Below, piece after piece: positions 21,440 through 40,370 of a DNA stretch of 64,000 nt. The DNA is taken from NCBI RefSeq assembly GCF_025353065.1, contig NZ_JANXRJ010000103.1:1-64000 (forward strand), written 5' to 3'. A program made the translations under genes and the position numbers. The notes beneath the pieces were generated by a model that was given only the letters and a program-made list of their open reading frames with translations, did no database searches and had not been told where the DNA came from. How positions within the stretch are numbered: the stretch's first letter is position 1; each line of letters begins with the position of its first letter. The DNA comes from Lapillicoccus sp. (GTDB lineage Bacteria; Actinomycetota; Actinomycetes; Actinomycetales; Dermatophilaceae).

Positions 21440-21443
<4 letters not shown>
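20214..21443 (+). CDS. DUF4350 membrane-anchored protein
   Basis: A 409-residue protein with an N-terminal membrane anchor (WAVIVAVVIGVALVMTW), a large extracytoplasmic DUF4350 domain (LDPRNPQPTGSQALGRVLADHGVEV, then TVFVARTSALAQATIDELADLS, VVVDPDPWVLRYL), a second helix (LVPGLVVVLMAVLGLMLW, about 280), and a cytoplasmic tail. DUF4350 has a GATase/periplasmic-ligand-like fold with no defined ligand. The GTG start at 20214 is supported by the GTGA overlap; the track's earlier start (19578) is a shadow of the DUF4129 frame. It is the third gene of the coupled five-gene set. Confidence 0.82.
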
Positions 21444-22714
<1,271 letters not shown>

Positions 22715-22738: not shown

Positions 22739-22843
22739 CGTCCGCGCGGACGCGACACCGGTGTGCCGTTGGCGCGGACGTCAGCGCACCACCCTCCGTT
22801 ACGTCCGCGCGAACGCGACACCGGTATGCCGTTCGCGCGGACG
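22739..22843. repeat. Palindromic repeat family C, two copies (42 bp each)
   Basis: Two direct copies, 22739-22780 and 22802-22843, 63 bp apart. Each starts CGTCCGCGCG and ends GCGCGGACG. The second copy has perfect 14-bp arms around a GCGACACCGGTATGC centre; the first differs at three positions, which break two arm pairs. The block fills the gap between the MoxR and DUF58 genes. Confidence 0.85.
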
Positions 22844-22859
22844 CAAGCGCGGTGTGCCC

Positions 22860-24152
22860 GTGGCGGTGAGCTGGCGCTTCCCCATCCTCGTGCTGGTCGG
22901 TCTCGTCGCCGTCGTCATCCAGCCGACCCGCGAGACCGTGCTGCTCTGGCTCGCCCTGAGCATCGTCCTCACGGTGGTCGACCTCCTCTTCGCGGTGAGT
23001 CCGCGACGCCTCGGGATCCAGCGCGAAGGGGGATCCCAGGTGCGGCTCGGCGACAGCGGCACGACCGCGCTGCTCGTGACCAACACCGGCCGGCGGACCC
23101 TGCGCGGACTCGTCCGCGACGCGTGGCAGCCGTCCGCCGGAGCAACCGTCGACCGGCACCGACTCACCCTCAAGAGTGGTGAGCGCCGAAGGTTGACAAC
23201 GATAGTGGTGCCGACCCGTCGGGGCGACCGGCTTGCCGACCGCGTCACGGTGCGCAGCTTCGGCCCGCTGGGACTCGGCGCCAGGCAACGCTCCTTCGAC
23301 GTCGGCGGCGTGATCCGCGCCCTGCCGCCGTTCCACTCGCGCAAGCACCTTCCCTCCCGGTTGGCGGCGCTGCGGCAGCTCGACGGCCGCTCCGCCGTGC
23401 GGATCCGGGGGCAGGGCACGGAGTTCGACTCGCTGCGTGACTACGTCGAGGGCGACGACGTCCGCTCGATCGACTGGCGTGCCACCGCCCGGCGCCAGCA
23501 CGCGGTGGTGCGCACCTGGCAGCCCGAGCGCGACCGCCGGGTGATCCTCGTCCTCGACACCTCGCGCACCTCCGCGGGCCGGGTCGAGGACATGCCGCGC
23601 CTCGACAGCGAGATGGACGCCGCGCTGCTCCTCGCCGCCCTCGCCTCCCGGGCAGGCGACCGCGTCGACCTCATCGCCGGCGACCGCTGGGTCCGCGCCC
23701 GGGTCGGGTCGGCGAGCCGCACGGCGCTGCTCGCCGAGCTCGTCCAGGCGATGTCCCCCCTGGAGCCGGCGCTGCTCGAGGCGTCCTGGCCCACGCTGGC
23801 CGCCGCCATCGCCGACACCAGCCGCCGCCGCGCGCTCGTCGTCCTGCTCACCTCGCTCGAGCCGGCTGCCATCGAGGAGTCGCTGCTACCGACCCTCGCC
23901 ACCCTCACGACCCACCACCGCGTGGTGGTCGCCTCGGTGAGCGACCCCGCGCTGACGGCCATGGCGGCTCGACGCGGGACGACCGCCGAGGCCTACGACG
24001 CCGCGGCCGCCGAGCGCACCCTCACGCTGCGCCAGCGGACCGCCGACGTCCTCGGCCGCCTCGGGGTCACGGTCATCGACGCCGACCCCGAGCACCTCCC
24101 ACCCCGCCTCGCCGACCACTACCTCCTGCTCAAGAGCCAGGGACTCCTCTGA
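22860..24152 (+). CDS. DUF58 (vWA-like) protein, MoxR partner
   Basis: A 430-residue protein with two N-terminal membrane helices (FPILVLVGLVAVVIQ and ETVLLWLALSIVLTVVDLLF) and the DUF58 signature GTEFDSLRDYVEGDDVRSID followed by WRATARR. A vWA-like segment VILVLDTSRTSAG carries a DxSxT metal site. Partner of the upstream MoxR ATPase in a system of unknown output. The start is uncertain: GTG codons at 22854, 22860 and 22866 all lack a good ribosome site; 22860 is a compromise. The gene begins only 17 bases after repeat C, so its translation is no longer coupled to moxR. Confidence 0.85.
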   Translation: MAVSWRFPILVLVGLVAVVIQPTRETVLLWLALSIVLTVVDLLFAVSPRRLGIQREGGSQVRLGDSGTTALLVTNTGRRTLRGLVRDAWQPSAGATVDRHRLTLKSGERRRLTTIVVPTRRGDRLADRVTVRSFGPLGLGARQRSFDVGGVIRALPPFHSRKHLPSRLAALRQLDGRSAVRIRGQGTEFDSLRDYVEGDDVRSIDWRATARRQHAVVRTWQPERDRRVILVLDTSRTSAGRVEDMPRLDSEMDAALLLAALASRAGDRVDLIAGDRWVRARVGSASRTALLAELVQAMSPLEPALLEASWPTLAAAIADTSRRRALVVLLTSLEPAAIEESLLPTLATLTTHHRVVVASVSDPALTAMAARRGTTAEAYDAAAAERTLTLRQRTADVLGRLGVTVIDADPEHLPPRLADHYLLLKSQGLL

Positions 24153-24167: not shown

Positions 24168-24248
24168 CCTCGTTCCGAACACACGTTCTGTCAAATTTCG
24201 CGTGCTCCGGAGCCCCCGGATTGAGCAGAACGTGTGTTCGGAACGAGG
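24168..24248. repeat. Palindromic repeat family B, copy 1 (81 bp)
   Basis: Perfect 23-bp inverted arms (24168-24190 and 24226-24248, outer CCTCGTTCCGAAC) flank a 35-nt loop containing CTCCGGAGCCCCCGGA. It lies between two convergent genes and could be a bidirectional terminator, but it lacks a T-tract. A second copy is at 28822-28910. Confidence 0.9.
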
Positions 24249-24258
24249 AAGGGCTGGC

Positions 24259-27494: not shown

Positions 27495-28793
27495 TCAACC
27501 CACCCGGTCGATGACCAGCGGGAGCAGGTCGGGCCGCGACCCCTCGGGAGCGATGAAGAAGGCCCCGTCGAGCGCCTCGAGCGCGCGCTCGAACCGCTCC
27601 GGGGTGTCGGTGTGGAGAGTCAGCAGCGGCTGCCCGCCGCGCACGGACGCGCCGGGCTTGGCGTGCATCTCGATGCCGGCGCCGGCCTGCACGGGGTCCT
27701 CCTTGCGAGCCCGACCGGCCCCGAGCCGCCACGCCGCGACCCCGACCTTCAACGCGTCGAGCGAGGTCAGGACCCCGTCGGCCGGCGCTATGACGACGTG
27801 GGTCTCGCGGGCGGTCGGGAGCGTCGCCCCGGGGTCCCCGCCCTGCGCGCGGATCATCGCGCGCCAGACGTCCATCGCCCGACCGTCCGCGAGCGCGTCG
27901 GCCGGGTCGACGTCCCCGCGACCGGCGCCCGCGAGCATCTCGCGCGCGAGGGTGAGGGTCAGCTCGACGACGTCCGGCGGGCCGCCGCCGGCGAGCACCT
28001 CCACCGACTCGCGCACCTCGAGCGCGTTGCCGGCCGTCAGCCCGAGCGGGGTCTGCATGTTGGTGAGGAGGGCGACCGTGCGCACGCCGGCGTCGGTGCC
28101 GAGCGCCACCATCGTCTCGGCGAGCTCGCGGGCCGAGGCGACGTCCTTCATGAACGCTCCCGACCCGACCTTGACGTCGAGGACGAGCGCGCCGGTGCCC
28201 TCGGCGATCTTCTTGCTCATGATCGAGCTCGCGATGAGCGGGATCGACTCCACGGTGCCGGTGACGTCGCGCAGGGCGTAGAGCTTCTTGTCCGCCGGGG
28301 CGAGGCCGTCGCCGGCGGCGCAGATGACCGCGCCGACCCCCTCGAGCTGCGCGAGCATCTGCTCGGTGGTGAGGGAGGCGCGCCAGCCGGGGATCGACTC
28401 GAGCTTGTCGAGGGTGCCCCCGGTGTGACCCAGGCCGCGCCCGGACAGCTGGGGCACAGCGACCCCGCAGGCCGCGACGAGCGGCGCCAGCGGCAGCGTG
28501 ATCTTGTCACCGACGCCACCGGTCGAGTGCTTGTCGGAGGTCGGCCGGGAGAGCCTGCTGAAGTCCATCCGCTCGCCCGAGGCGATCATCGCGGCGGTCC
28601 AGCGGGCGATCTCCGGGCGGGTCATCCCGTTGAGGAGGATGGCCATCGCGAGCGCCGACATCTGCTCGTCGGCGACCACGCCGCGCGTGTAGGCGTCGAT
28701 GACCCAGTCGATCTGGGGGTCTGACAGCTCGCCACGCCCCCGCTTGGTGACGATGACGTCGACGGCATCGAAGGCTTCGTTCGCTTCGCTCAC
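27495..28793 (-). CDS. deoA: Thymidine (pyrimidine-nucleoside) phosphorylase
   Basis: A 432-residue phosphorylase releasing pyrimidine base and (deoxy)ribose 1-phosphate. Motifs: VIVTKRGRGELSDPQIDWVIDAY at the N-terminus, DKHSTGGVGDKITLPLAP phosphate loop, SGRGLGHTGGTLDKLESIPG (the family signature), and ALVLDVKVGSGAFMKD. GTG start at 28793 is preferred over the track start because it removes a segment lying in repeat B and is preceded by CATGAT at six-base spacing. It would work with DeoC (13 kb) after phosphopentomutase, which is not in the window. It is separated from cdd by the whole tad operon. Confidence 0.94.
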   Translation of the reverse strand: MSEANEAFDAVDVIVTKRGRGELSDPQIDWVIDAYTRGVVADEQMSALAMAILLNGMTRPEIARWTAAMIASGERMDFSRLSRPTSDKHSTGGVGDKITLPLAPLVAACGVAVPQLSGRGLGHTGGTLDKLESIPGWRASLTTEQMLAQLEGVGAVICAAGDGLAPADKKLYALRDVTGTVESIPLIASSIMSKKIAEGTGALVLDVKVGSGAFMKDVASARELAETMVALGTDAGVRTVALLTNMQTPLGLTAGNALEVRESVEVLAGGGPPDVVELTLTLAREMLAGAGRGDVDPADALADGRAMDVWRAMIRAQGGDPGATLPTARETHVVIAPADGVLTSLDALKVGVAAWRLGAGRARKEDPVQAGAGIEMHAKPGASVRGGQPLLTLHTDTPERFERALEALDGAFFIAPEGSRPDLLPLVIDRVG

Positions 28794-28799
28794 GCCCCC

Positions 28800-28805
28800 A
28801 TCATG
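28800..28805 (-). promoter_or_regulatory. -10 box of leaderless deoA promoter
   Basis: CATGAT on the minus strand, six bases (GGGGGC), then GTG at 28793. The repeat B2 hairpin lies immediately upstream and would insulate deoA from tad transcription. Confidence 0.55.
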
Positions 28806-28821: not shown

Positions 28822-28910
28822 CCCTCCTCGTTCCAAACACGCGTTTTACCAAGTTCTCGGGCCCCGGAGGCCACCGGACTTGATAAAACGTGTGTTCGGA
28901 ACGAGGAGGG
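28822..28910. repeat. Palindromic repeat family B, copy 2 (89 bp)
   Basis: Arms of 32 bp (28822-28853 and 28879-28910) pair with three mismatches. Outer sequence CCCTCCTCGTTCC and the CCGGAGG loop match copy 1 at 24168-24248. It sits between the end of the tad operon and the deoA promoter, in line with transcription termination after the pilus genes. Confidence 0.88.
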
Positions 28911-28929
28911 GGTGGCGCGCGGGGGTGGG

Positions 28930-31900
28930 TCAGGCGGAGGCCGGGGTCCGCGTGCCGAGCAGGTGGGTCACGAGTGCCTCGGTCTCGCCCTCCAACGGCA
29001 CGTCGTATGCCGCGAGGGTGCGGCTCATCTCGTCGACCGCCTCGCGGACGGCCTCGATGCCGGCGCGCTGCTGCTCGACCTCGAGCACGTCCCGCCACAG
29101 CACCTGCGAGGTGCGGGCGAGCCGCAGCCCGCCGCCCGCTGCGGCCGCAGCCCCCTGCGCGTCCCCCGCCTCACGGGCGAGCTCGACGAGCCGATGCGCG
29201 ACGCCCACGACGCTGCGCACGATCGAGCGCTCGAGCGCGAGCCCGGCCAGCCAGGAGTAGTGCCCGTCGGCGCGGCCCTCGAACGGTTCGCCCCGGACGA
29301 GCCGCAGGGCCCGCCGGAGGTTCTCGCCCTCGGCGATGCGGCCGTTGGTGCCCTTGGCGCGGTCGACGAGGGTGCAGAAGGCGTGCCAGTCGCAGGCGAC
29401 GCCGCCGCCCAGGGAGTAGCGCCCGCCCCCGTCGACGCGCAGCCGGGCGAGCCCGTCGGGGCCGGCGCCCAGCCAGTCGCGGACCCGCACGAGGGTGGCG
29501 GTGAAGACCGACTGGCTCACGCCGCGGGGCCAGATCGCGCCGGCGAGCACAGCGGGGTGCACGCCGCCGGGGTGGGCGGCGAGGTAGGCGATGATCTCCT
29601 CGGCCAGCGGCCGGGCGCCGGGGTCGATCGGCCCGGGAGCGCGGACGGTGATCGGGCCGAGGAAGCCGACCCGGGCCTCGGTCACGGCGAACGCCCCGTC
29701 GTCGGTCGTCAGCGGCGACATCGGGACGGCAGCGAGTCCCACGCGGTCGGGGGTGTGGGGGACGCTCTCGGCCGCGCCGAACAGCTGCGCGACGGCCGAC
29801 AGGGCCTCGCGACTGACGCGGTAGGCCTCGAGGGTCACCCCGAGGACCGAGGTGGTGAGCATCCCGGCCTCGTCGACCACGAGCTCCCACGACGCGTCGG
29901 GGATGTCGCCGACCCCGACGAGGCCGACGGCCCGGCGGGGGCCCGAGGTGATCAGTGCGAGCCGAGCGAGCAGCTCGGGCGCGACGGGAGCGGCGAGCAC
30001 GGCATACTCCGCCGGACCGTCGGCTCCGCGCGCGAGGCGGCGGGTGAGGGTCTCGTCCCCCGCGACCGCAGGACGGATCTCGAAGCGCTCCGCGAGACCG
30101 GCGAGGTCGGGCGTCGTGTCGATGACACCGGCGCTGAGCTGCTCGATCTCCGGCGGAAGCCCCACGGCTGAGACCTTGACGCCGTCGGACCACGGCTGGG
30201 TGGCCAGCTGGATCGCGAGGGCGATCGCGACCTGCTCGGCGATGGTCGCGTCACCGACGAGCCGGATCGGCCCGGCCGCGGCCTCGAGGTCGATCAGCAG
30301 ATCGGCGCCGGAGCCGTCGCGGCCGAGGGCCACGAGACCGGGGTATGCCGCGACCCCGGCCGACGTCGAGGACCGCCCGAGGTCGTGGCGTCGCAGGGTC
30401 CACGTCGCCCCGTCGTCCTCGGCGCGCCACGGCTCGGGCGCCGCCGGACGCGGCTGGATGAGCATCAGGGTGACCACGTCGTCCGTCGCCCGCGCAGCGA
30501 AGATCTGGGGCGGCACGGTGAGCGAGGCGGCGCAGCGGGCGGCGAGCAGACGGAGCGCCAGGTTGATCCACCGCGCGCGCTCGAGGTCCGCCCCGACGCG
30601 CAACCCGACCTCCGCGGAGACGCCCAGGGCCGACGGGCTCGAGCCACCGCCGTTGCGGCGGCGCTGGCGCATCAGGGCCAACAGGATGCAGGCGGCGAAG
30701 GTGCCACCGGTGGCCAGGCTGGCGACCAACGGGTTGACCGGCTGGACGGGGGACATCGAGCCCTGGTCGGGTCGGCCGGGCGCTGACGGGGGCGCCAGGT
30801 CCGGCGATGGCGCAGTCGCGGGCGCGTTGTCCGGGACCGGTGCGGTAGGCAGGAAGCCGACCCCGGTCACCGAGCTGCCCTGGGGGGCCCACGCCTGCAC
30901 CGCAGGAGCCGTCGTGCCCGTCGGGGTGGTCGTGCCCGTCGTGCCCGTCGGGGCCGTGGTCGAGGGATGCAGGTCGGGCATGGGCGCGGAGACGGCCTGC
31001 CGGGCGGGCGGCGGGGTGACGGGCACGCGGCCGACGCCCACGGCGTCGTCCGGCATGACCAGCTCCCAGCCCGGCTGGATGAGCTTTGCGAGGTGCAGGG
31101 TGCCGCCGCCGGGCTGGACGCGACCCTCGTTGAGGGCGTAGATCTCCTTGTAGCGGCGTCCGTCGCCCAGGTGCTTCTCGGCGATCTCCCACAGGCTGTC
31201 GTGGTGGTGCCCGCGCGGGGGCTCGACGACGTAGACCTTCTTGCCGGCGACGTCGGAGGACGAGGTAGCGGTCGAGGCCGGGATGGCCGAGGCGGCACCG
31301 GTGCTCGCGGGGATATCGGGCGCGCGGGGGCCCATCGTCACGGGGCCGGCTGAGGTCGTGTCCCCCGGCGCCAGGGCGGAGATGGTCGTCGACGGCCGCG
31401 CCGGGGTGGCGTCACTGAGGGCTCCGGTGACGGCGGCGACCTGACCCAGGACGACCGAGCTCAGCAGGACGCCGCCGATGAGCATGCGGGCGAGCCGTTG
31501 CGACGGCCCGGAGAACGGGACCGGCCTCGGGACGCCGTGGTGGTTGACCGCCGAGAAGAGCTCGACGATGAGGCAGACGACGAACTGCAGCCACGCCAGC
31601 CAGACGACGGCGACGAGGACGACGAGCAGCTGCTCGACCCCGAGGTGCTGGGTGAGGTCGTCACGGGTGGGCAGACGGGTCGGGATGGGGGGTCGACCGG
31701 AGAGCCACAGCAGGAGCACCGGCACCCCGACGACGATGGCCAGGAGCGCGACGAGCGACAGGAGGCGACGCAGGACGGACGGTCGGTCGTCCTCGGGCGC
31801 GGCCTGCCGGAAACGCTGCGGGCCACTGGCGCCGACGGGGCCGGAGGCGTCGGCGGCTGAGGACCCGCGCTTACGGCCGGGGGTGATCTTCCGTCCGGAG

Positions 31901-31938
31901 GGGCGCGTCGGGTTCGGTGCCTGGGGCCTCTGGGTCAT
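28930..31938 (-). CDS. Large membrane protein with LysM and BTAD-like domains, tad-linked
   Basis: A 1002-residue protein, last gene of the tad operon. After a basic N-terminus come three membrane segments (LLSLVALLAIVVGVPVLLLWL, LLVVLVAVVWLAWLQFVVCLI and a third around LIGGVLLSSVVLGQVAAVTGAL), a LysM-like segment (VVEPPRGHHHDSLWEIAEKHLGDGRRYKEIY), a Pro/Thr-rich linker, another helix (LVASLATGGTFAACILLAL), and from about residue 840 a winged-helix plus BTAD-type helical repeat region (FTATLVRVRDWLGAGPDGLARLRVDGGGRYSL). BTAD domains normally belong to SARP-type regulators. The ATG at 31938 overlaps the upstream gene by ATGA; the track's 1200-residue frame extends wrongly upstream. Function unknown; similar proteins accompany actinobacterial Flp pilus loci. 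Confidence 0.78.
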   Translation of the reverse strand: MTQRPQAPNPTRPSGRKITPGRKRGSSAADASGPVGASGPQRFRQAAPEDDRPSVLRRLLSLVALLAIVVGVPVLLLWLSGRPPIPTRLPTRDDLTQHLGVEQLLVVLVAVVWLAWLQFVVCLIVELFSAVNHHGVPRPVPFSGPSQRLARMLIGGVLLSSVVLGQVAAVTGALSDATPARPSTTISALAPGDTTSAGPVTMGPRAPDIPASTGAASAIPASTATSSSDVAGKKVYVVEPPRGHHHDSLWEIAEKHLGDGRRYKEIYALNEGRVQPGGGTLHLAKLIQPGWELVMPDDAVGVGRVPVTPPPARQAVSAPMPDLHPSTTAPTGTTGTTTPTGTTAPAVQAWAPQGSSVTGVGFLPTAPVPDNAPATAPSPDLAPPSAPGRPDQGSMSPVQPVNPLVASLATGGTFAACILLALMRQRRRNGGGSSPSALGVSAEVGLRVGADLERARWINLALRLLAARCAASLTVPPQIFAARATDDVVTLMLIQPRPAAPEPWRAEDDGATWTLRRHDLGRSSTSAGVAAYPGLVALGRDGSGADLLIDLEAAAGPIRLVGDATIAEQVAIALAIQLATQPWSDGVKVSAVGLPPEIEQLSAGVIDTTPDLAGLAERFEIRPAVAGDETLTRRLARGADGPAEYAVLAAPVAPELLARLALITSGPRRAVGLVGVGDIPDASWELVVDEAGMLTTSVLGVTLEAYRVSREALSAVAQLFGAAESVPHTPDRVGLAAVPMSPLTTDDGAFAVTEARVGFLGPITVRAPGPIDPGARPLAEEIIAYLAAHPGGVHPAVLAGAIWPRGVSQSVFTATLVRVRDWLGAGPDGLARLRVDGGGRYSLGGGVACDWHAFCTLVDRAKGTNGRIAEGENLRRALRLVRGEPFEGRADGHYSWLAGLALERSIVRSVVGVAHRLVELAREAGDAQGAAAAAGGGLRLARTSQVLWRDVLEVEQQRAGIEAVREAVDEMSRTLAAYDVPLEGETEALVTHLLGTRTPASA

Positions 31939-32438
31939 GGGACTGCTCCGTTGATTCCGGTGACCGCGCTGGCCGTCGCTGTGCCCGCGATGTCGATGGT
32001 GTCGATGTGGACGAGGGACAGCAGCGTGGTCGGGATCGTCGCCTTGAGCGAGACCGTCACCGTGGTGGCGGTGATCTGGGTGGGTCCGTCGAGCGTGTAG
32101 CCGGAGTTCTTCGTGACGTAGTCCGCCGCCGCCGCTTGGGCGTCCGCCTGCTTGAGCACGACCCGGCCGGTGCTGCGCAGCGTGGTTACGTCGATCTGGC
32201 GCGCCCCGGCGCGCGCGGCCTGCTCGGCGACGTCGAAGGCACGGTCCTTCGCGTTGATGACGCGTCCCCCGTCGATGGCGAGACCGGCGACGCCGAAGAG
32301 GACGACGGACAGCCCGATGACGAACACGCTCATCGAGCCGTCGTCGCGCCGCCCACGGCGCACGCGACGGACGGTGCGCACGACTGCGGGAGCACCAGGA
32401 CGGGAGGCGGGGCCTCGGTGCCGACCGTGCTGCATCAT
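31935..32438 (-). CDS. TadG-like pilus assembly protein
   Basis: A 167-residue protein with a basic leader, RRDDGSMSVFVIGLSVVLFGVAGLAIDGGRVINAKDRAFDVAEQAARAG, i.e. the TadE/G prepilin-like pattern of a single helix followed by an amphipathic region with AAR residues. The remainder is extracytoplasmic. This group (Flp pilus assembly TadG-like) anchors or modifies the pilus. Four-base overlaps at both ends show tight coupling inside the tad operon. Confidence 0.75.
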   Translation of the reverse strand: MMQHGRHRGPASRPGAPAVVRTVRRVRRGRRDDGSMSVFVIGLSVVLFGVAGLAIDGGRVINAKDRAFDVAEQAARAGARQIDVTTLRSTGRVVLKQADAQAAAADYVTKNSGYTLDGPTQITATTVTVSLKATIPTTLLSLVHIDTIDIAGTATASAVTGINGAVP

Positions 32439-32929
32439 GGCGTCCCCGTCCTGCGGAACTGGTCGAGGGGCGCGACGCTGGTGCCCCGCACGGTGGTCGA
32501 GCCGGGGAGGCCGACGAGCCCGAGGTCGCCATAGGTGATCACGCAGGAGATCTGGACGGTGACGCTACCGCCGGCGACGAAGTCGGAGGTGTCGACGGCG
32601 GCCGGGCAGGAGGTCGCGCCCATCGACGCCGAGACGGCACTGGCCGCTGCTCCCTGTGCCTCCCCGGACGAGCGGGCCAGTGACGCGGCACGAGCGGCGT
32701 CGCGAGCGGCGGAGTCGACGTCGCCCTGACGCAGGACCAGACGGCCGCCAGCGGCGATGAGCAGCACGAAGGCGAAGAGGAGGGGCACGAGGATGACGAC
32801 CTCCACGGCCATCGACCCGCCGTCCCGTCGACCCGCGCAGCGGAGGGGTCGACGCGACCCACATCCGGAGAGGGAGGAGCCACGACGAAGGACGTGGGTG
32901 CCCGAGCGTCGTCCGACCGACAGCGCCAT
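32435..32929 (-). CDS. TadE-like pseudopilin, second copy
   Basis: A 164-residue TadE-family protein: basic leader ending RRDGGSMAVEVVILVPLLFAFVLLIAAGGRLVLRQGDVDSAARDAARAAS, where the helix with its glutamate at position +5-like (AVEVV) is characteristic. Two cysteines in SCPAAV and ISCVITYG may form a disulfide outside the cell. The start at 32929 is chosen because AGGAGG lies about nine bases upstream; the track's ATG at 32986 has no ribosome site but cannot be excluded. It overlaps the TadG-like gene by four bases. Confidence 0.75.
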   Translation of the reverse strand: MALSVGRRSGTHVLRRGSSLSGCGSRRPLRCAGRRDGGSMAVEVVILVPLLFAFVLLIAAGGRLVLRQGDVDSAARDAARAASLARSSGEAQGAAASAVSASMGATSCPAAVDTSDFVAGGSVTVQISCVITYGDLGLVGLPGSTTVRGTSVAPLDQFRRTGTP

Positions 32930-32993
32930 CGCCACTCCCCCTCCTGCGTGATCTGCGTGATCGGTGATGACCATGGTCTCGGTCATCGTCGTT

Positions 32994-33422
32994 TCAGTTG
33001 TCGGGCCGGAACTGCTCGACCGGCCCCTGCGAAACGGCCGAGATGTTCTCCAGCTGCGGGATCGGCACGAGGGAGAGCGGCTTCGCCGTCACCTCGACAC
33101 GGACGGTGAGCGCCGGAGCCGCCTGCTGCTGGATGACGACGTCCGTGACGAGCCCGTTGCCGATCTTCTTCGCGTAGTCGATCGCCTGCTGCTGGGCCTG
33201 CGCGGGGGTTCCCCCCGTGCGCAGCACCCGGGCAGCCTCTCGGGCGGTCGACGAGACGACCTGGTGACCGAGGTAGAACAGCGCGAACTGCACGGTGATG
33301 AAGATGACGAACATCAGCATCGGCGTGTAGAACAACAGCTCGATCGAGCTCGCGCCCGAGTCACTCCGTCGGAGTCTCCCGGATCGTGCCCGCCGTGCTG
33401 CCGCTGCCAACCCCCCGGTCAT
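32994..33422 (-). CDS. TadE-like pseudopilin, first copy
   Basis: A 142-residue TadE-family protein with basic leader and GASSIELLFYTPMLMFVIFITVQFALFYLGHQVVSSTAREAARVLRTGG, a near-textbook TadE domain (Glu in SIELL, helix, then STAREAAR). The remaining residues form an extracytoplasmic domain. Both ATG (33422) and GTG (33428) are possible starts. It follows the Flp pilin by 10 bp or less and is part of the same operon. Confidence 0.82.
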   Translation of the reverse strand: MTGGLAAAARRARSGRLRRSDSGASSIELLFYTPMLMFVIFITVQFALFYLGHQVVSSTAREAARVLRTGGTPAQAQQQAIDYAKKIGNGLVTDVVIQQQAAPALTVRVEVTAKPLSLVPIPQLENISAVSQGPVEQFRPDN

Positions 33423-33432
33423 CAGCACCCGA

Positions 33433-33669
33433 TCAGGGGGCGGCGGGTACGGGCGGCGTCACCGTGATGTTGGCGGCGGCGGAGGTGATCTTGTCGTAGA
33501 GGACCTTGCTGACGATCCCGACGAGGATGACCAGCACCGAGGTGATGATCACCCACTCGACCGCGGAGGCCCCACGGTCGCCGGCCGCACCGAGGGCACG
33601 GGCCCGGTCGACGCGACGGCGGACGAACAGTTCGAGGACCTGAGCCGGCCCGGCGTGAAGAAAAAACAT
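33433..33669 (-). CDS. flp: Flp-type pilin
   Basis: A 78-residue prepilin: long basic leader (VRRRVDRARALGAAGDRGA), then SAVEWVIITSVLVILVGIVSKVLYDKI, matching the Flp/Fap hydrophobic domain with the conserved glutamate at about +5 of the mature protein (GASAVEW). The short C-terminus AANITVTPPVPAAP is typical of actinobacterial Flp. This is the probable major pilin. It has the best ribosome site in the operon (AGGGGAG, 6 bases before ATG), fitting high expression, and a 99-bp gap upstream that may carry an extra promoter. Codons 2-4 form an unusual T-run (ATGTTTTTTCTT). Confidence 0.85.
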   Translation of the reverse strand: MFFLHAGPAQVLELFVRRRVDRARALGAAGDRGASAVEWVIITSVLVILVGIVSKVLYDKITSAAANITVTPPVPAAP

Positions 33670-33768
33670 GAGCTCCCCTTGTGGTGTCTTTTCGGGCTGT
33701 TCCGGTCATCTGACGGGCCCTGCTCCCCAGCGGTTCCCGAGATTGAGCACTCGTCCTCGGCAGGTCAC

Positions 33769-34695
33769 TCACAGGCCGCTGCTGAGAACTCGTGCAATGG
33801 CAGGGTACGTCAGGAAGGTAAGAAACCCTACACACAGCAGCAGCTGGGCGACGAGCATCGACTGGGACCGCGCCTGCGCCCGACCCTCGGCCTCGGCGAG
33901 CTCGCGCTGCCGCATCGAGTCGGCCCGGGCATACAGCGAGTCGCGCACCTTGGCCCCATCCTCGGCCACCAGGCCGAGCGCGGCGGAGAGGTCGCGCAGC
34001 TCGTCGATCTGCAGCTCGTTACCCAGCTGTCCCAACGCCGCCCACGGCGTGACGCCCTGCAGCCGCGCCGTCCGGAGGGTGTCCCGGATGAGGAGCATGC
34101 CCCACCCGCTGGAGATCCCGGCGGCGGTGTCGAGGGCCTCGGGGACACCGCGACCGCCGCTCAGGTTCATCGCCACGAGGTCGAGGAACGAGCTGATGAC
34201 GTGCCGGAAGTCGCGCCGCCGGTCGGCCGCCGTCCCCCGCAGCTGGAGCGTCGGCAGGACCAGTCCGAGAAGGCCGAGCAGCAGTGCGCCCCACAGCGGC
34301 ACGAACCCGACCGCGGTGACGCCCATCGCGACGAGGACGATGCCCAGGGCGACCGGGACGGCGATCCCGATGACCCCGCAGACGAGGCTCGTGGCGATGT
34401 GGTTCTCGACCGAGCGCAGGGTCATCGCGAGGTCGGCGCGGACGGACGGGGGGAGCCGGACCCCGCGCGCCTCCATGACCTCCCGCACCTGGGCACCGAT
34501 CCGGCGCAGCCGCAGCGACTCTCCCGTGAAGCGGTCGTCCACCGAGAGGACGGAGTCGCGACGGAAGCGCTGCCGGTCGAGGTCGAGGCGGGCGAGCGCG
34601 GAGGCACCGGAGACGGGTCGCTGGTCGAGGAGGGAGACGAGCAGGAAGAAGCCGACACCGGCCACCGCGCCGAAGAGGATGACGAAGGTGATCAC
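33769..34695 (-). CDS. tadC: Flp pilus assembly platform protein TadC
   Basis: A 308-residue inner-membrane platform protein of the type II secretion F (T2SSF) family. An N-terminal helix, a cytoplasmic region, paired helices (LVCGVIGIAVPVALGIVLVAMGV, FVPLWGALLLGLLGLVLPTLQL), the T2SSF helical domain (DFRHVISSFLDLVAMNLSGGRGVPEALDTAA) and a final helix MLVAQLLLCVGFLTFLTYPAI are visible. It would work with TadB and the CpaF ATPase. The ATG overlaps the tadB stop by four bases. Confidence 0.88.
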   Translation of the reverse strand: MITFVILFGAVAGVGFFLLVSLLDQRPVSGASALARLDLDRQRFRRDSVLSVDDRFTGESLRLRRIGAQVREVMEARGVRLPPSVRADLAMTLRSVENHIATSLVCGVIGIAVPVALGIVLVAMGVTAVGFVPLWGALLLGLLGLVLPTLQLRGTAADRRRDFRHVISSFLDLVAMNLSGGRGVPEALDTAAGISSGWGMLLIRDTLRTARLQGVTPWAALGQLGNELQIDELRDLSAALGLVAEDGAKVRDSLYARADSMRQRELAEAEGRAQARSQSMLVAQLLLCVGFLTFLTYPAIARVLSSGL

Positions 34696-35618
34696 CGGCG
34701 CCCCCTTCTCGGTGAGGTCGGGGACGACGCCGACGACGTCGCGCCCTCCTGGGTACCGAGGTGGAGGAAGCGGTCGGGGAGCTCGAACGCCGACAGTCGC
34801 CGCAGCCAGAGCAGGCCGGCGGCGAAGATGAGGACGATGAACAGGAGGACGGCCTGACCGGTGACGGTGCCGTAGGGCTCGACGAAGCCGGGGTTGAGCA
34901 GCCTGAGCCCGAGGACGGCGAAGGCGGTGATGCCGACGACGATCTGCACGCTGCGACGGGTGCTACGACGGCTCGCCATGATGCGGCCGCGCATCTCGAG
35001 CTCGCTGCGGACACTGCGGGCCAGCGAGCTCAGCACGTCACGCAGACCCGGTCCGCGCAGCTTGCCGTTGAGCAGCAGTGCGGCGACGACGAGGTCGGCG
35101 GTCGGGTCGTCGAGGTCCGCCGCCAGCCGGTTCAGGGCCGTGTTGAGCGAGACCCGGACCCGGAGGCGGTCCGCGAGATCGGTGACCGACTTCTGGATGG
35201 CCGGGGAGGCCGCCTCGGCCGATGCCGGGATTGCCTGCTCGAGCCCGACCGCGCCCGCGATGGTGTCCCGGAGCGACTCGGTCCAGGCGGCGAGCCCCTC
35301 GAGCCGGGCGTAGGCGTTGCGCTCGCTGGAGGCCCCACCGACCAGGGCGTTCCAGAAGAAGACGAGGAGCGCGGCGGCCACGGCCAGCACCGGCCAACGC
35401 GTCATCAGGAGCATGAGCAGGCCGACACCGACGGCGATCGGGATCCGCCGCCCGATGCGGGTCGCCAGCCGCCGCAGGTCCGGCCCGAGCACGGATGCTC
35501 CGGCCGCCTTCGGGGGCACGGGCGTGATCCCGAGGACCGCGAGGAGTATCCCCAGGCCGACGAGGGCGCCGAGCCCCACCATCTCGACCACGACGAGGGA
35601 GTCCGCGGAGGTGTTCAC
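34692..35618 (-). CDS. tadB: Flp pilus assembly platform protein TadB
   Basis: A 308-residue T2SSF-family membrane protein: helices at VVVEMVGLGALVGLGILLAVLGI, VGVGLLMLLMTRWPVLAVAAALLVFFW, the cytoplasmic domain with LAAWTESLRDTIAGAVGLEQAI, and C-terminal helices VQIVVGITAFAVLGLRLL and AVLLFIVLIFAAGLLWLRRL. The GTG start at 35618 overlaps the ATPase stop (GTGA); the track's extra 19 residues are upstream shadow. Pairs with TadC to form the platform of the pilus machine. Confidence 0.87.
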   Translation of the reverse strand: MNTSADSLVVVEMVGLGALVGLGILLAVLGITPVPPKAAGASVLGPDLRRLATRIGRRIPIAVGVGLLMLLMTRWPVLAVAAALLVFFWNALVGGASSERNAYARLEGLAAWTESLRDTIAGAVGLEQAIPASAEAASPAIQKSVTDLADRLRVRVSLNTALNRLAADLDDPTADLVVAALLLNGKLRGPGLRDVLSSLARSVRSELEMRGRIMASRRSTRRSVQIVVGITAFAVLGLRLLNPGFVEPYGTVTGQAVLLFIVLIFAAGLLWLRRLSAFELPDRFLHLGTQEGATSSASSPTSPRRGRR

Positions 35619-36919
35619 CGGTAGACCCCCGGTGCCGCACCGGAATACCCGACCCGCATGAGGTCGTCGAGGCACGAGATCGCCGCCGCGGGATGGGCCT
35701 CGCCGTCGGGTCCCAGGGCGAACACCTCGCTCGACAGGACGCGCTCGTCGACGCCGTTGACCTCGCGGATGGAGGTGACGACCCGGCGGAGGCCACCGCC
35801 CGACTCGAAGGAGTTGATCCGCTCGACGAAGAGGACGAAGTCGATCGCCCCCGCGATGAGCATGCTCGCCGCGTCGGCCGGGAGCCGCTCGGCCGACTGG
35901 ATGGCGTAGGTGCAGATGCGGTTGAAGACCTCGAGCGAGCTGTTGGCGTGGATCGTCGAGAGCGACCCGTCGTTGCCCTGGCTCATCGCATTGAGCATCG
36001 TCACGATCTCGTCGCCGAGCACCTCGCCGACGATGACCCGGCTGGGGTTCATCCGCAGCGAGCGGCGGACCAGCTCGGCCATCCCGATGAACCCCTGGCC
36101 CTCGGAGTTGGGCAGCCGCTCCTCGAGGGAGACGACGTTGGGGTGCAGGTCCTCGTATTCCCCGAGCCCGAGCTCGAGGGCACGCTCGACGGTGATCAGC
36201 CGCTCCGACGGGGGGATCTCGTTGGCCAGGGCCCGCAGCAGGGTGGTCTTGCCGGCGTTGGTGGCGCCCGCGATCATGATGTTCTTCCGGGCCCGGACCG
36301 CGGCCGAGAGGAACTCGGCGATCTCGAGGGTCATCGAGCCGTTGCGGACGAGGTCGTCGAGCGAGACGCGGCTGAGGCGGGCGCGGCGGATGGAGAGGGC
36401 CGGCCGCGCGGTCACGCCCATGACCGCCGACAGCCGGCTGCCGTCCGGCAGCCGCAGGTCGAGCTGGGGGTTCGAGGTGTCGAACGGACGGCTCGAGAGC
36501 CCGGAGTATGCCGCGAGCACCTGCACCAGCTCGATGAGCTCTTCGTCGTTGTCGGCGATCGGCGCCGGGCGCTCCTCGTGGCCGTCCGCGAAGCCGACGA
36601 AGATCTGGTCGCAGCCGTTGATGTCGATGTTCTCGACCATCGGGTCGTCGAGCAGCGGCTGCAGCCGGCCGACCCCGAAGAGCGCGGCGTGGATGCCTTC
36701 GGACAGCTCGGCCTCGTCCTCGAGCGTCGGAGGCGTGCGGCCGCCCGCCATCTCGGTGCGCGCGTAGGACTCGAGGGTGCGCGCGATGACGGCGCGGGCG
36801 AACTGGCGCTCGTCCTCGGCGTTCATCAGCCCGACACCGGCGGCGGAGTCCTCACGCCGTTGCCGGGTCAGGGTGTCGGCGACCTCTTCACGGAGTCGCC
36901 GGACGATCAGCTGGTCCAT
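35615..36919 (-). CDS. tadA: Pilus assembly ATPase CpaF/TadA
   Basis: A 434-residue secretion ATPase of the GspE/VirB11 superfamily. N-terminal domain with LLDDPMVENIDINGCDQIFV, Walker A GATNAGKTTLL, Asp-box-like LITVERALELGL, Walker B RVIVGEVLGDEIVTML and His box GSLSTIHANSS. It powers Flp pilus assembly from the cytoplasmic face. The ATG at 36919 has a purine-rich ribosome site (GAGAGGAGAG). It is followed by tadB with four-base overlap and preceded by tadZ with a 65-bp gap. Confidence 0.93.
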   Translation of the reverse strand: MDQLIVRRLREEVADTLTRQRREDSAAGVGLMNAEDERQFARAVIARTLESYARTEMAGGRTPPTLEDEAELSEGIHAALFGVGRLQPLLDDPMVENIDINGCDQIFVGFADGHEERPAPIADNDEELIELVQVLAAYSGLSSRPFDTSNPQLDLRLPDGSRLSAVMGVTARPALSIRRARLSRVSLDDLVRNGSMTLEIAEFLSAAVRARKNIMIAGATNAGKTTLLRALANEIPPSERLITVERALELGLGEYEDLHPNVVSLEERLPNSEGQGFIGMAELVRRSLRMNPSRVIVGEVLGDEIVTMLNAMSQGNDGSLSTIHANSSLEVFNRICTYAIQSAERLPADAASMLIAGAIDFVLFVERINSFESGGGLRRVVTSIREVNGVDERVLSSEVFALGPDGEAHPAAAISCLDDLMRVGYSGAAPGVYR

Positions 36920-36984
36920 CGTGCTCTCCTCTCTCGTTTCCTGGTCGGGACTGACTGGCTGTCGTGGACGTGGGGCGGTCGACC

Positions 36985-37779
36985 TCAGGCGAGCTGCGCG
37001 GCGCGGCGCGCAGCGAGGTCCCGCAGGGACTGCCCGACCGCGGCCACGGACCGCACGAACAGCGACTTCGTCGGCAACGCCTCGAGCGAGTAGCGCATCC
37101 GGCCGGCCGCCTTGGAGTCGACGGCGATCTGGCCGACCACGCTGACATCGAGGCGCGCCTGGTCGAGGATCCGATGGATCTCACCGGTGCTGGCGCGGTC
37201 GCGCTCGTCCGTGACGACCGCCACGCCGATGGGGACACCGAGGGCCTCGCGCGCGGTCAGCTGCTCGATGATCCCCGACAGCCGCTCGCGCAGGTGGTAG
37301 AGCTCCTCGACCGTGGGTCGGGTGAGCACGAGGACGGCGCTCGACGCCGCGAGGACCGGCATCACGGCGGTCTGCGGCACGATCCGGCCGCAGTCGGCGA
37401 TGACGTCGACCTCGGCGATGGCCGCGAGGGCTACGGCGATGTGCTGCCAGCTCGCTCCCAGCGCGGCGACCTGCTCCGGTCGGGTGACCCCGGCGAGCAC
37501 CGCCGGCCCGCCGGCGATGCGCTGCACGTGCGGCTCGACCGATCCCCCCTCGGTCCCCCGTCGCAACGACGACGCGAGGGACATCAGCCCCCGGTCCGCG
37601 AGCAGCGGACGCGACTGCTCGTCGCGGTAGCGGATCGCCATGTCTCCGCCCGAGGTGTCGAGGTCGGCCAGCAGGGTCGGGCGGTCCCAGGTCATCGCCA
37701 TGGCGGCTGCGACGGTGCTGACCCCCGGTGAGCCCTTCGCCGTGCAGACGGAGAACAACGCCACGTCAGCTGCCGCCAC
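36985..37779 (-). CDS. tadZ: TadZ/CpaE-like ParA-family protein
   Basis: A 264-residue MinD/ParA-type ATPase with deviant Walker A (AKGSPGVSTVAAAMA) and LLADLDTSGGDMAIRY as switch region; VIADCGRI serves as Walker B. CpaE/TadZ proteins localise the pilus machine to the pole. Missing is the atypical receiver domain found at the N-terminus of CpaE in Gram-negatives, as is common for the actinobacterial form. Its start lies inside the end of the upstream SAF-domain gene (14-bp overlap). Confidence 0.82.
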   Translation of the reverse strand: MAAADVALFSVCTAKGSPGVSTVAAAMAMTWDRPTLLADLDTSGGDMAIRYRDEQSRPLLADRGLMSLASSLRRGTEGGSVEPHVQRIAGGPAVLAGVTRPEQVAALGASWQHIAVALAAIAEVDVIADCGRIVPQTAVMPVLAASSAVLVLTRPTVEELYHLRERLSGIIEQLTAREALGVPIGVAVVTDERDRASTGEIHRILDQARLDVSVVGQIAVDSKAAGRMRYSLEALPTKSLFVRSVAAVGQSLRDLAARRAAQLA

Positions 37780-38470
37780 GCGTGATGAGGATGACCGCGA
37801 TCTGGTTGGCGGCCGACGCCGCTGCGACGGCTGGCGCGACGTCGGGCGTCACGATGAGGGTGGCGATCCCACCGTTGGACGAGCCCGCCGACGACCCACC
37901 ACCACCGAGGAAGGACCCGCCGCCCGCGCTCGCATCGGCCGAGGGGCCGCGCGACACGACCGCGTTCTCGACGAGGACCGTGGCTTTGCCCTCGACGACC
38001 TGCACGACCTCGACCGTGTCGCCCGTGGAGAGACCGCTTGCCGGCATCCGACCGGAACCGATCGCCACACCGACGGCGACCACGCCCTTCCTGAGGAATC
38101 CCTGGCTGGTGAACATCTGCTGGTCGAGCAGACGACCCTGGGGGATGTTCTGCGACGCGAAGGAGCCGATCAGGCTGTTCGCCGTGGTGGCCGGGAGGAC
38201 GGAGAGCCCGTCCCCGGCGACCCGCTGCACCGCGAGGTCGTCGGCGGTGATGGGTTGGCCGACGGCGATGGCGTGCGACGCGACGAGCACCGGCTCACGG
38301 CTGTCGATCCGCACCGCGAGCAGCCCGGCCACGGCTGCGCCGCCCACGATGAGCAGCACCGCGAGCCCGATCATCGCCGGACGCCGACGCGTGGCGCTGC
38401 CCCCCTTGGGGAAGCGCGTGGACGGTGGGGGCGGCAGCGCAGGCCCTGCCGGCCCCGGAGGCGTGCTCAT
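37766..38470 (-). CDS. cpaB: CpaB/RcpC-like SAF-domain pilus protein
   Basis: A 234-residue protein with one N-terminal membrane helix (MIGLAVLLIVGGAAVAGLLAV, about 33-53) and an SAF domain (VLVASHAIAVGQPITADDLAVQRV ... QGRLLDQQMFTSQGF), as in the Flp pilus protein CpaB/RcpC that helps control secretin or pilus passage through the wall. A glycine/serine-rich insertion (GGGSFLGGGGSSAGSSNGG) lies near the C-terminus. It is the first gene of the tad operon, with ribosome site GGAAGGA and an upstream promoter at 38541-38569. Confidence 0.83.
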   Translation of the reverse strand: MSTPPGPAGPALPPPPSTRFPKGGSATRRRPAMIGLAVLLIVGGAAVAGLLAVRIDSREPVLVASHAIAVGQPITADDLAVQRVAGDGLSVLPATTANSLIGSFASQNIPQGRLLDQQMFTSQGFLRKGVVAVGVAIGSGRMPASGLSTGDTVEVVQVVEGKATVLVENAVVSRGPSADASAGGGSFLGGGGSSAGSSNGGIATLIVTPDVAPAVAAASAANQIAVILITRGGS

Positions 38471-38632: not shown

Positions 38633-39061
38633 TCAGGCCGGCGGAGGCCGCCGTCGGCCGGCCGCGTCGAGGTCGTCCGCCCCGAAGGCCTGCGGCAGCA
38701 CGTCCGCCATCGTCCGCACACCCTCGGGGGTCTGCAGCAGGCAGTCGGGCCCACCGTTCTCCCACAGCAGCTGCCGGCACCTCCCGCAGGGCATCAGCGG
38801 CTCGCCATCCCCTCCGACGCACGCGACGGCGACGAGCCGGCCGCCGCCCGTCACGTGCAGCTGCGACACCATGCCGCACTCCGCGCAGAGGGTCACCCCG
38901 TATGCCGCGTTCTCGACGTTGCAGCCGACGACGACCCGCCCGTCGTCGACGAGGCCGGCGACGCCGACCGGGAAGTGGGAGTAGGGAGCATAAGCCTGGA
39001 GCATCGCCTCGATCGCCTTGTCTCGCAGGGCAGCCCAGTCGATCTGGTCCGACCGCGTCAC
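38633..39061 (-). CDS. cdd: Cytidine deaminase
   Basis: A 142-residue tetrameric-type cytidine deaminase converting (deoxy)cytidine to (deoxy)uridine. Zinc ligands are Cys59, Cys92 and Cys95 with catalytic Glu61 (TLCAEC and PCGRCRQ), and FPVGVAGLVDDGRVVVGCNVENAAYG forms the substrate site. The GTG at 39061 is preceded by GAGG at eight bases and lies just after the permease stop, so it is the last gene of the BMP-nup operon. The track's 165-residue version extends into the permease gene. Downstream, transcription would meet the tad promoter region. Confidence 0.94.
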   Translation of the reverse strand: MTRSDQIDWAALRDKAIEAMLQAYAPYSHFPVGVAGLVDDGRVVVGCNVENAAYGVTLCAECGMVSQLHVTGGGRLVAVACVGGDGEPLMPCGRCRQLLWENGGPDCLLQTPEGVRTMADVLPQAFGADDLDAAGRRRPPPA

Positions 39062-39071
39062 GTCGGCATCC

Positions 39072-40370
39072 TCATCGGCCCGAGTAGGGCACGCCGTCGG
39101 CGGCGGGCGACTGGCTGCGACCGACGACACCGGCGACGACGAGCAGGGTGACGAGGTAGGGCAGGGACCCGAGGATCTGGGACGGGATGCTCAGCGGTGT
39201 CCCGATGAAGGAGAGCGCGGTGTTCAGCGCGGACGTGAAAGCGAAGAGGATCGCCGCACCCATCGCCCCGAGCGGGGTCCAGCGCCCGAAGATGACGGCG
39301 GCGAGGGCGATGAAGCCGCGGCCGGCCGTCATGTTGATGCCGAACCCCCCCACGGACCCGATGCTCACGTAGGCACCGGCGAGCCCGGCGATGCCGCCGG
39401 CGAGGAGCGAGTTGCGGAACCGCAGCCGGGTGACGTTGATGCCCAGGGTGTCCGCGGCCCGCGGGTGCTCGCCGACCGCCCTCGTCCGCAGGCCCCACCG
39501 GCTGCGGAACAGCATCAGGTTGAGGACGACGACCACGACGACGGCGAGGTAGACCAGGAGATTGGCCTCGAACAGCACCGGACCGATGATCGGGATCCTC
39601 GACAGCACCGGGATGGTGAGCGGCTGGACGGTGCCCGGCTGGTTGAGGCCGGCGGAGTCCTGCTGGAGCAGCCGGGAGTAGAGGTAGGTCGTGAGGCCGA
39701 GGACGAGGAGGTTGATGACGACCCCGAGCACCACCTGGTTGACCTGGTAGCGGATCGCGAACGTGCCGAGCAGGGCGCCGACGAGGACGCCGGCGACGAC
39801 CCCGGCGATCGTGCCGGCGACGAGGCTGTGCGCGACCGTGCCCACGAGCGCGGCGAGGAAGGCGGCCCCGAGCATCTGGCCCTCGATGGCGACGTTGACG
39901 ATGCCGCTGCGCTCGGACACGGTGCCGGCCATCGCGCCGAGGACGATGGGCACGGCCAGGAAGATGGTCGCCTGGAGCAGCCCCACGGCGTCGAGCTGGG
40001 CGTTGGGGTCGCCGCTCGCCGCCCAGAGCAGGAAGGCGAGGATGACGGCGACGACGGCGAACCACGTGCACAGGGCCCGCACCCGCCCCGCAGGACGACG
40101 GGCGACGAGGTATGCCGTGACGGCCGCGACGAGGACGGCGAGCACGATCGCGGTCAGGGTGGTCGGGACGGTGATCAGGGGGATCGAGACGTAGTCGCCG
40201 GGTGAGTTCAGGCGCAGGCTGGACCGGCCGGAGTCTCCGGCGCCCAGACCGAGCAGGAGGCAGAGGACCGCGCACGAACCCGTTCCGATCGCGAGGTTGC
40301 GGACGGGCCGGGGAGCCTCGACGACGGGGACCCGGGTCTCCTCGGGAGTCAGCTCGAGCGTCATCGTCAC
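39072..40370 (-). CDS. Nucleoside ABC transporter permease, second subunit
   Basis: A 432-residue polytopic membrane protein of the branched-chain amino acid/ribose-type permease family (BPD_transp_2) as found in BmpA-NupABC nucleoside importers. About ten helices; the recognisable core is GTVSERSGIVNVAIEGQMLGAAFLAAL and FRSRWGLRTRAVGEHPRAADTLGINV. The GTG at 40370 overlaps the upstream stop (GTGA); ATG at 40364 is an alternative. The long N-terminal third with four extra helices is usual for the actinobacterial version. Confidence 0.88.
   Translation of the reverse strand: MTMTLELTPEETRVPVVEAPRPVRNLAIGTGSCAVLCLLLGLGAGDSGRSSLRLNSPGDYVSIPLITVPTTLTAIVLAVLVAAVTAYLVARRPAGRVRALCTWFAVVAVILAFLLWAASGDPNAQLDAVGLLQATIFLAVPIVLGAMAGTVSERSGIVNVAIEGQMLGAAFLAALVGTVAHSLVAGTIAGVVAGVLVGALLGTFAIRYQVNQVVLGVVINLLVLGLTTYLYSRLLQQDSAGLNQPGTVQPLTIPVLSRIPIIGPVLFEANLLVYLAVVVVVVLNLMLFRSRWGLRTRAVGEHPRAADTLGINVTRLRFRNSLLAGGIAGLAGAYVSIGSVGGFGINMTAGRGFIALAAVIFGRWTPLGAMGAAILFAFTSALNTALSFIGTPLSIPSQILGSLPYLVTLLVVAGVVGRSQSPAADGVPYSGR

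Follow-up and report, generated by a model that had tools for sequence, protein, structure and literature searches.

A membrane protein with LysM-like, degenerate ATPase-like and SARP-type regions is a conserved component of one actinobacterial Tad lineage

The last gene of a tad operon

The window, a stretch of 64,000 nucleotides from a contig of Lapillicoccus sp. (NZ_JANXRJ010000103.1), carries a tad operon on its minus strand. Its genes, from first to last, are:

37766..38470, minus strand: RcpC/CpaB gene, the operon's first (Pfam SAF, 4.8e-9)
36985..37779, minus strand: TadZ-like gene, without a Pfam match; named by position and sequence only, and found in the same place in relatives
35615..36919, minus strand: TadA motor ATPase gene (Pfam T2SSE, 1.9e-30)
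34692..35675, minus strand: TadB platform gene (Pfam T2SSF, 1.4e-7)
33769..34695, minus strand: TadC platform gene (Pfam T2SSF, 2.4e-8)
32994..33428, minus strand: TadE-like minor pilin gene (Pfam TadE, 7.4e-9)
32435..32986, minus strand: TadE-like minor pilin gene (Pfam TadE, 3.2e-10)
31935..32438, minus strand: TadG-like minor pilin gene (Pfam Tad, 1.5e-10), coupled to the next gene via ATGA
28930..31938, minus strand: LysM / pseudo-ATPase / SARP-like membrane protein gene, the operon's last

An earlier note on this DNA had described the last product as a 1002-residue protein that is translationally coupled to TadG and ends the operon. Translation of the minus-strand frame 28930-31938 indeed gives 1002 amino acids and a stop codon, and the ATG at 31938 shares 4 bp (ATGA) with the stop codon of the TadG-like gene at 31935-32438. 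Within the window the gene does end the operon; on its 3′ side follow a 91-bp palindromic element and then deoA. Searches of Pfam and NCBIfam with the whole protein returned nothing above threshold, and its domains were resolved via homologs and structure models. The family alignment used throughout comprises 40 homologs; one further sequence (L045) was left out owing to a wrong frame.

31708..31764, minus strand: membrane helix 1, residues 59-77 (hydropathy peak 2.98; helix in the model)
31567..31623, minus strand: membrane helix 2, residues 106-124 (hydropathy and model; holds the invariant VWLAWLQF)
31429..31485, minus strand: membrane helix 3, residues 152-170 (hydropathy and model)
31039..31239, minus strand: LysM-like domain, residues 234-300, predicted outside (model, Foldseek, relatives)
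30730..31038, minus strand: Pro/Thr-rich low-complexity linker, residues 301-403 (sequence; alignment columns unconserved)
30673..30729, minus strand: membrane helix 4, residues 404-422 (hydropathy; RQRRR follows)
29683..30351, minus strand: degenerate FtsK/EccC-like ATPase fold, about residues 530-752 (inferred boundaries; Foldseek matches FtsK and EccC3)
29401..29682, minus strand: OmpR/SARP-type winged helix, about residues 753-846, with recognition helix 809-823
28933..29400, minus strand: BTAD helical domain, about residues 847-1002 (model, Foldseek, hhalign, Pfam matches of homologs)

The operon as a probable inserted cassette

The 9.5-kb tad operon (28930-38470) lies inside a nucleoside-salvage operon, flanked by 27495-28800 and 38633-39130, so that the gene order reads bmp, ABC transporter, cdd, tad, deoA, add. 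In 5/5 close relatives, which belong to the same genus or family, cdd lies next to deoA at a distance of about 30-85 bp, and the identity to the window copies is 73-81% for cdd and 82-92% for deoA. This arrangement points to a probable insertion of the whole tad operon, as one cassette, between the two genes. Window TadA shares about 80% identity with its counterparts in Nocardioides and in locus L004, whereas TadA proteins of the five close relatives reach at most 40%, with 46% only over one 76-residue fragment. The alternative, loss of the operon from all five relatives, is less simple than insertion.

Membrane topology and the LysM-like domain

The several membrane helices proposed in the earlier note amount to four, which we find as hydropathy peaks at residues 59-77, 106-124, 152-170 and 404-422 and which are supported by charge bias. 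Each of the 40 homologs has at least two of the four peaks and usually three or four. Averaged over the family, Lys and Arg make up 15.7% of the N-terminal tail, 6.3% of loop 1, 13.1% of loop 2, 7.5% of loop 3, and 33% of the stretch downstream of helix 4. Since the inner segments contain 13-33% Lys/Arg and the outer ones 6-8%, this pattern fits an N-in/C-in topology that places loop 3 with the LysM-like domain outside and residues ~425-1002 in the cytoplasm. The winged-helix/BTAD region is thereby predicted inside the cell and not outside it.

In the model of residues 50-305, the LysM-like segment adopts the beta-alpha-alpha-beta arrangement of LysM, with a domain pLDDT around 90 or above. 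The protein itself has no Pfam LysM match and reaches NCBIfam LysM only at E 0.02. Most of its top Foldseek matches are Kbp and baseplate proteins that contain LysM, with weak E-values of 0.06-0.8. Relatives do reach Pfam LysM, at 3e-14 and 5e-8, and distant ones carry a textbook LysM sequence. Thus, the earlier assignment of a LysM-like segment stands by fold, Foldseek partners and the scores of relatives, its recognisable sequence being seen through the relatives. LysM domains bind N-acetylglucosamine glycans, and by this assignment the domain presumably binds peptidoglycan.

The same genome encodes a paralog (L095 2110-5607, G000:C113) that lies behind another TadG gene and contains two LysM copies (Pfam 3e-14). 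Consequently, another Tad locus belonging to the wider family is present in this genome.

A degenerate ATPase-like domain

AlphaFold prediction of residues 428-1002 with the 40 homologs yields a model with a mean pLDDT of 86. A Foldseek comparison with the PDB matches it to the motor of FtsK (1.5e-4) and to EccC3 from ESX-3 (1.8e-4), revealing an ATPase-like domain that is absent from the earlier description. This fold probably occupies residues ~530-750. Foldseek prints no range, and we derive this one from the predicted strands and helices together with the residues near G562. A sequence profile of the middle domain matched nothing in the PDB, so the assignment is one of structure comparison.

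While the fold resembles FtsK/HerA-type ATPases, the lysine and serine/threonine of Walker A are not present. None of the 40 homologs has the lysine in columns 556-575, nor does any distant relative aligned there, and in the model a strand ends at G562 and a helix begins at 564 with no P-loop between. A similar situation is described for the DUF domain of EccC5, which is degenerate, lacks a P-loop and starts a helix where the P-loop is expected (PMC11154593). The protein thus shares with the EccC DUF (6umm; EccC5 DUF, PMC11154593) and FtsK a P-loop-less ATPase fold behind membrane helices, but differs from them in having no PDB sequence match, no active motor domains and other partners.

The C-terminal region has a SARP fold

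The earlier note had proposed a SARP-type BTAD region with winged helix, and structure prediction of the C-terminal region finds this fold, an OmpR-type winged helix followed by BTAD. Residues ~752-1000 match AfsR (1.6e-7 and 5.1e-7) and EmbR (1.3e-6) in Foldseek searches of the PDB. Moreover, the family profile aligns by hhalign to four SARPs (AfsR, EmbR and two encoded by the genome itself) over 238 columns with a probability of 97.2% and an E-value of 3.5e-11, and PF03704 (BTAD) is matched by 25/40 homologs. The 1002-residue protein itself has no Pfam match to BTAD and is missed by a PF03704 search of its own genome; a sequence profile of the SARP region, run against the PDB, hit nothing but TPR-type proteins and designed helical repeats. 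With AfsR and its family (PDB 8k60, 8hvr) and EmbR (2fez), the module shares the succession of winged helix and BTAD over ~250 residues. Unlike these proteins, ours is membrane-anchored, and its module comes last in the chain, after a pseudo-ATPase; further, most DNA and RNA polymerase contacts are not kept and the HTH loop is three residues shorter.

The fold suggests a less likely alternative, a transcription regulator tethered to the membrane much as ToxR and CadC are, but with a SARP-type output domain. In such a regulator, the LysM side would sense peptidoglycan or pilus assembly, the pseudo-ATPase would relay the signal, and the winged helix with BTAD would bind DNA at the membrane and recruit RNA polymerase. 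The completeness of the fold and its predicted cytoplasmic location speak for this reading, as do the BTAD matches of the homologs. ToxR and CadC likewise combine a membrane-attached OmpR-type winged helix with a sensor outside, but their DNA-binding domain is N-terminal, they cross the membrane with a single helix, and they lack LysM, BTAD and pseudo-ATPase. We know of no described membrane-tethered SARP regulator. Also in favor of this reading, the SARP module of other large SARPs, for example AfsR, is under the control of an ATPase-type domain (PMC10936776).

Most DNA and RNA polymerase contacts are lost

The DNA contacts of AfsR are S46, Q48, W74, P79, S80, Q81, R87, T88, S91, R92, R94 and K95, and its RNA polymerase contacts include R59, D71, E76 and R173; Q48, W74, P79, T88, R94 and K95 are SARP DNA contacts reported to be highly conserved (PMC10936776). 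We mapped the AfsR residues onto the protein by the hhalign alignment and counted them in the 40 homologs. Only W74, corresponding to W803, is invariant among the six conserved contacts (40/40). R94 corresponds to R820 and is kept in 26/40, while K95 is replaced by D821 (Asp/Glu in 33/40) and T88 by A814 (Ala/Ser in 38/40). Q48 aligns to L778, and the position of P79 falls inside the three-residue deletion of the HTH loop. The conserved set of SARP DNA contacts is therefore not retained. Beyond this set, the base contact R92 corresponds to R818, present in 40/40, and R87 to T813, a position with Asp/Glu in 31/40. As an acidic residue at the position equivalent to 813 is normal in genuine OmpR/PhoB helices, this position alone should not be over-read.

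On the side of RNA polymerase, the contacts of D71 and E76 are lost: D71 corresponds to G800, at a position occupied by Ala, Gly or Ser, and E76 to R805, with Arg in 32/40. R59 and R173 have no confident mapping. The recognition helix carries a net charge of +1 in the window protein and of 0.05 on average in the 40 homologs, compared with +1 to +4 in the four SARPs. Distant relatives vary, and some of them have more SARP-like recognition helices (L083, RARTALTRLRRSLG; L070, TAKNSVSRTRRVLG).

SARP activators bind direct repeats and switch on transcription. A crude motif search over 49 loci found no operator common to several genera upstream of the tad operon; conservation there is genus-specific and promoter-like only. 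Upstream of rcpC in five Cellulomonas loci (L031, L035, L037, L039, L052), a promoter-like TATAGT stretch and an upstream TCCG motif are conserved in a genus-specific manner.

Judged by these residues, the SARP fold of this clade appears to have a decayed standard activation surface, so that DNA binding is unlikely, and we infer that the module no longer acts on DNA. The earlier proposal that it links the state of wall or pilus to transcription is unsupported as stated, most DNA and RNA polymerase contacts being lost. For a tethered regulator, the loss or reversal of Q48, P79, T88, K95, D71 and E76, the shortened HTH loop, the near-neutral recognition helix and the lack of a cross-genus operator in the crude search are adverse, while the invariance of R818 and W803 and the more canonical helices of some distant relatives remain in its favor. 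Rather unlikely, too, is its most specific version, a wall-sensing tethered SARP regulator whose LysM domain reads peptidoglycan or pilus engagement and whose dead FtsK/EccC-like domain relays it, and which would form a built-in feedback switch of the Tad system. A protein with two uses, one as a structural part of the pilus machine and the other as a feedback regulator that represses or activates its own operon while the machine idles or is stuck, would account for both the strict tad linkage and a kept SARP fold with an invariant base-contact arginine. It faces the same residue losses as the tethered regulator, and we consider it improbable.

The family is tied to Tad loci

In a scan of GTDB genomes, a relative of the protein lies directly behind TadG in 61/61 loci from many actinobacterial genera. 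Distant members on plasmids of Curtobacterium, Streptomyces and Micrococcus were likewise found in Tad clusters in 3/3 cases checked. Owing to this constant linkage, we regard the protein as a conserved, lineage-specific Tad component; the earlier claim that it belongs to the pilus system, made from the coupling to TadG, is thus borne out. A Curtobacterium prepilin peptidase was not found in the related loci. Of 297 genomes sampled across the phylum, 34 contain a match to the family, 208 a TadE/G-like gene and 33 both. The co-occurrence (33/34 versus 208/297 overall) has a hypergeometric p of 4e-5, a value that ignores kinship. The one exception (G167) has no TadE/G-like gene, and its match is limited to the SARP region.

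The protein is accessory to Tad overall and constant within one lineage. The Tad pili of Micrococcus luteus are encoded by two chromosomal clusters, each with a TadG-like last ORF (PMC4322843), and the LysM-BTAD part is therefore dispensable in some actinobacterial tad clusters. In locus L020 (5378-8297, a MAG contig), a second series of RcpC, TadZ and TadA follows the LysM-BTAD gene, suggesting tandem Tad operons.

Identity within the family is ~40%, compared with ~77% for TadA, as might be expected of a passenger gene with a decaying regulatory module that is unimportant for the pilus. The fixed position in 61/61 loci and the invariant tryptophans and motifs in every domain of the family contradict this explanation, which we regard as very improbable.

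A possible wall-anchored assembly factor

Our preferred reading, in which we put about even confidence, is a wall-anchored Tad assembly factor that has co-opted the SARP module as an adaptor. The protein would be a dedicated, lineage-specific inner-membrane part of the actinobacterial Tad pilus machine. Three helices and the LysM domain would anchor it in the membrane and attach it to peptidoglycan, while the long Pro/Thr-rich linker and the fourth helix would bring the chain back inside the cell. There, the degenerate ATPase fold and the SARP-derived module may serve as protein-protein adaptors, with the motor, the platform or a polar positioning protein as putative partners. The strict position behind TadG, the presence of TadE/G in 33/34 family genomes and the arrival with the operon as a cassette agree with such a role, as do the N-in/C-in topology with LysM outside, the missing Walker A motif and the near-neutral recognition helix. 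In contrast, a complete SARP module kept over great distances is unexpected for a mere scaffold, R818 and W803 are invariant, and some distant relatives are more SARP-like. Moreover, the tad clusters of M. luteus manage with TadG-like last ORFs (PMC4322843).

By analogy, the assembly factor might play in a single-membrane cell the role proposed for CpaD of the Caulobacter Tad machine, a putative peptidoglycan anchor (PMC13170226). The likeness is confined to this anchoring role, as CpaD is an outer-membrane lipoprotein with an OmpA-like fold and no cytoplasmic part and is not a homolog of the 1002-residue protein.

Genes of this type are already annotated in databases under either domain name; the automatic names "LysM domain protein" and "BTAD domain-containing putative transcriptional regulator" hide a single family. 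PAGK_2369 in the plasmid-borne Tad locus of C. acnes, listed as "TadB" in Table 2 of a 2013 paper, also joins LysM and BTAD in one Tad-locus protein next to TadE genes; the entry comes without further study and without analysis of topology, pseudo-ATPase or contact residues (PMC3666418). In the literature searched, a text search found no paper that joins LysM, BTAD and Tad, and no functional study of a LysM-BTAD Tad protein was found. New here are the recognition of one family with fixed gene order, its topology, the contact-residue test and the pseudo-ATPase domain. Little is known of the anchoring and control of Tad pili in bacteria that lack an outer membrane. A protein that spans wall, membrane and cytoplasm and occurs in all loci of one Tad lineage is an obvious candidate for an anchor or for a signal from pilus to genes. 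It would be either a membrane-tethered SARP regulator or a machine part made from the fold of a transcription activator.

Repeat element and neighboring genes

The palindromic element behind the operon has two copies in the window (24168-24258 and 28826-28916), which measure ~81-91 bp with arms of 21-23 bp. The arms match at 27 sites genome-wide, many of them paired ~58 bp apart, compared with 0 in a reversed-pattern control. They hold CGAACNNNNGTTC, a candidate likeness to the actinobacterial LexA box. On the other strand, 21440-22714 and 22761-24152 encode a MoxR-like AAA ATPase and a DUF58-like protein, both names being taken from the sequence.
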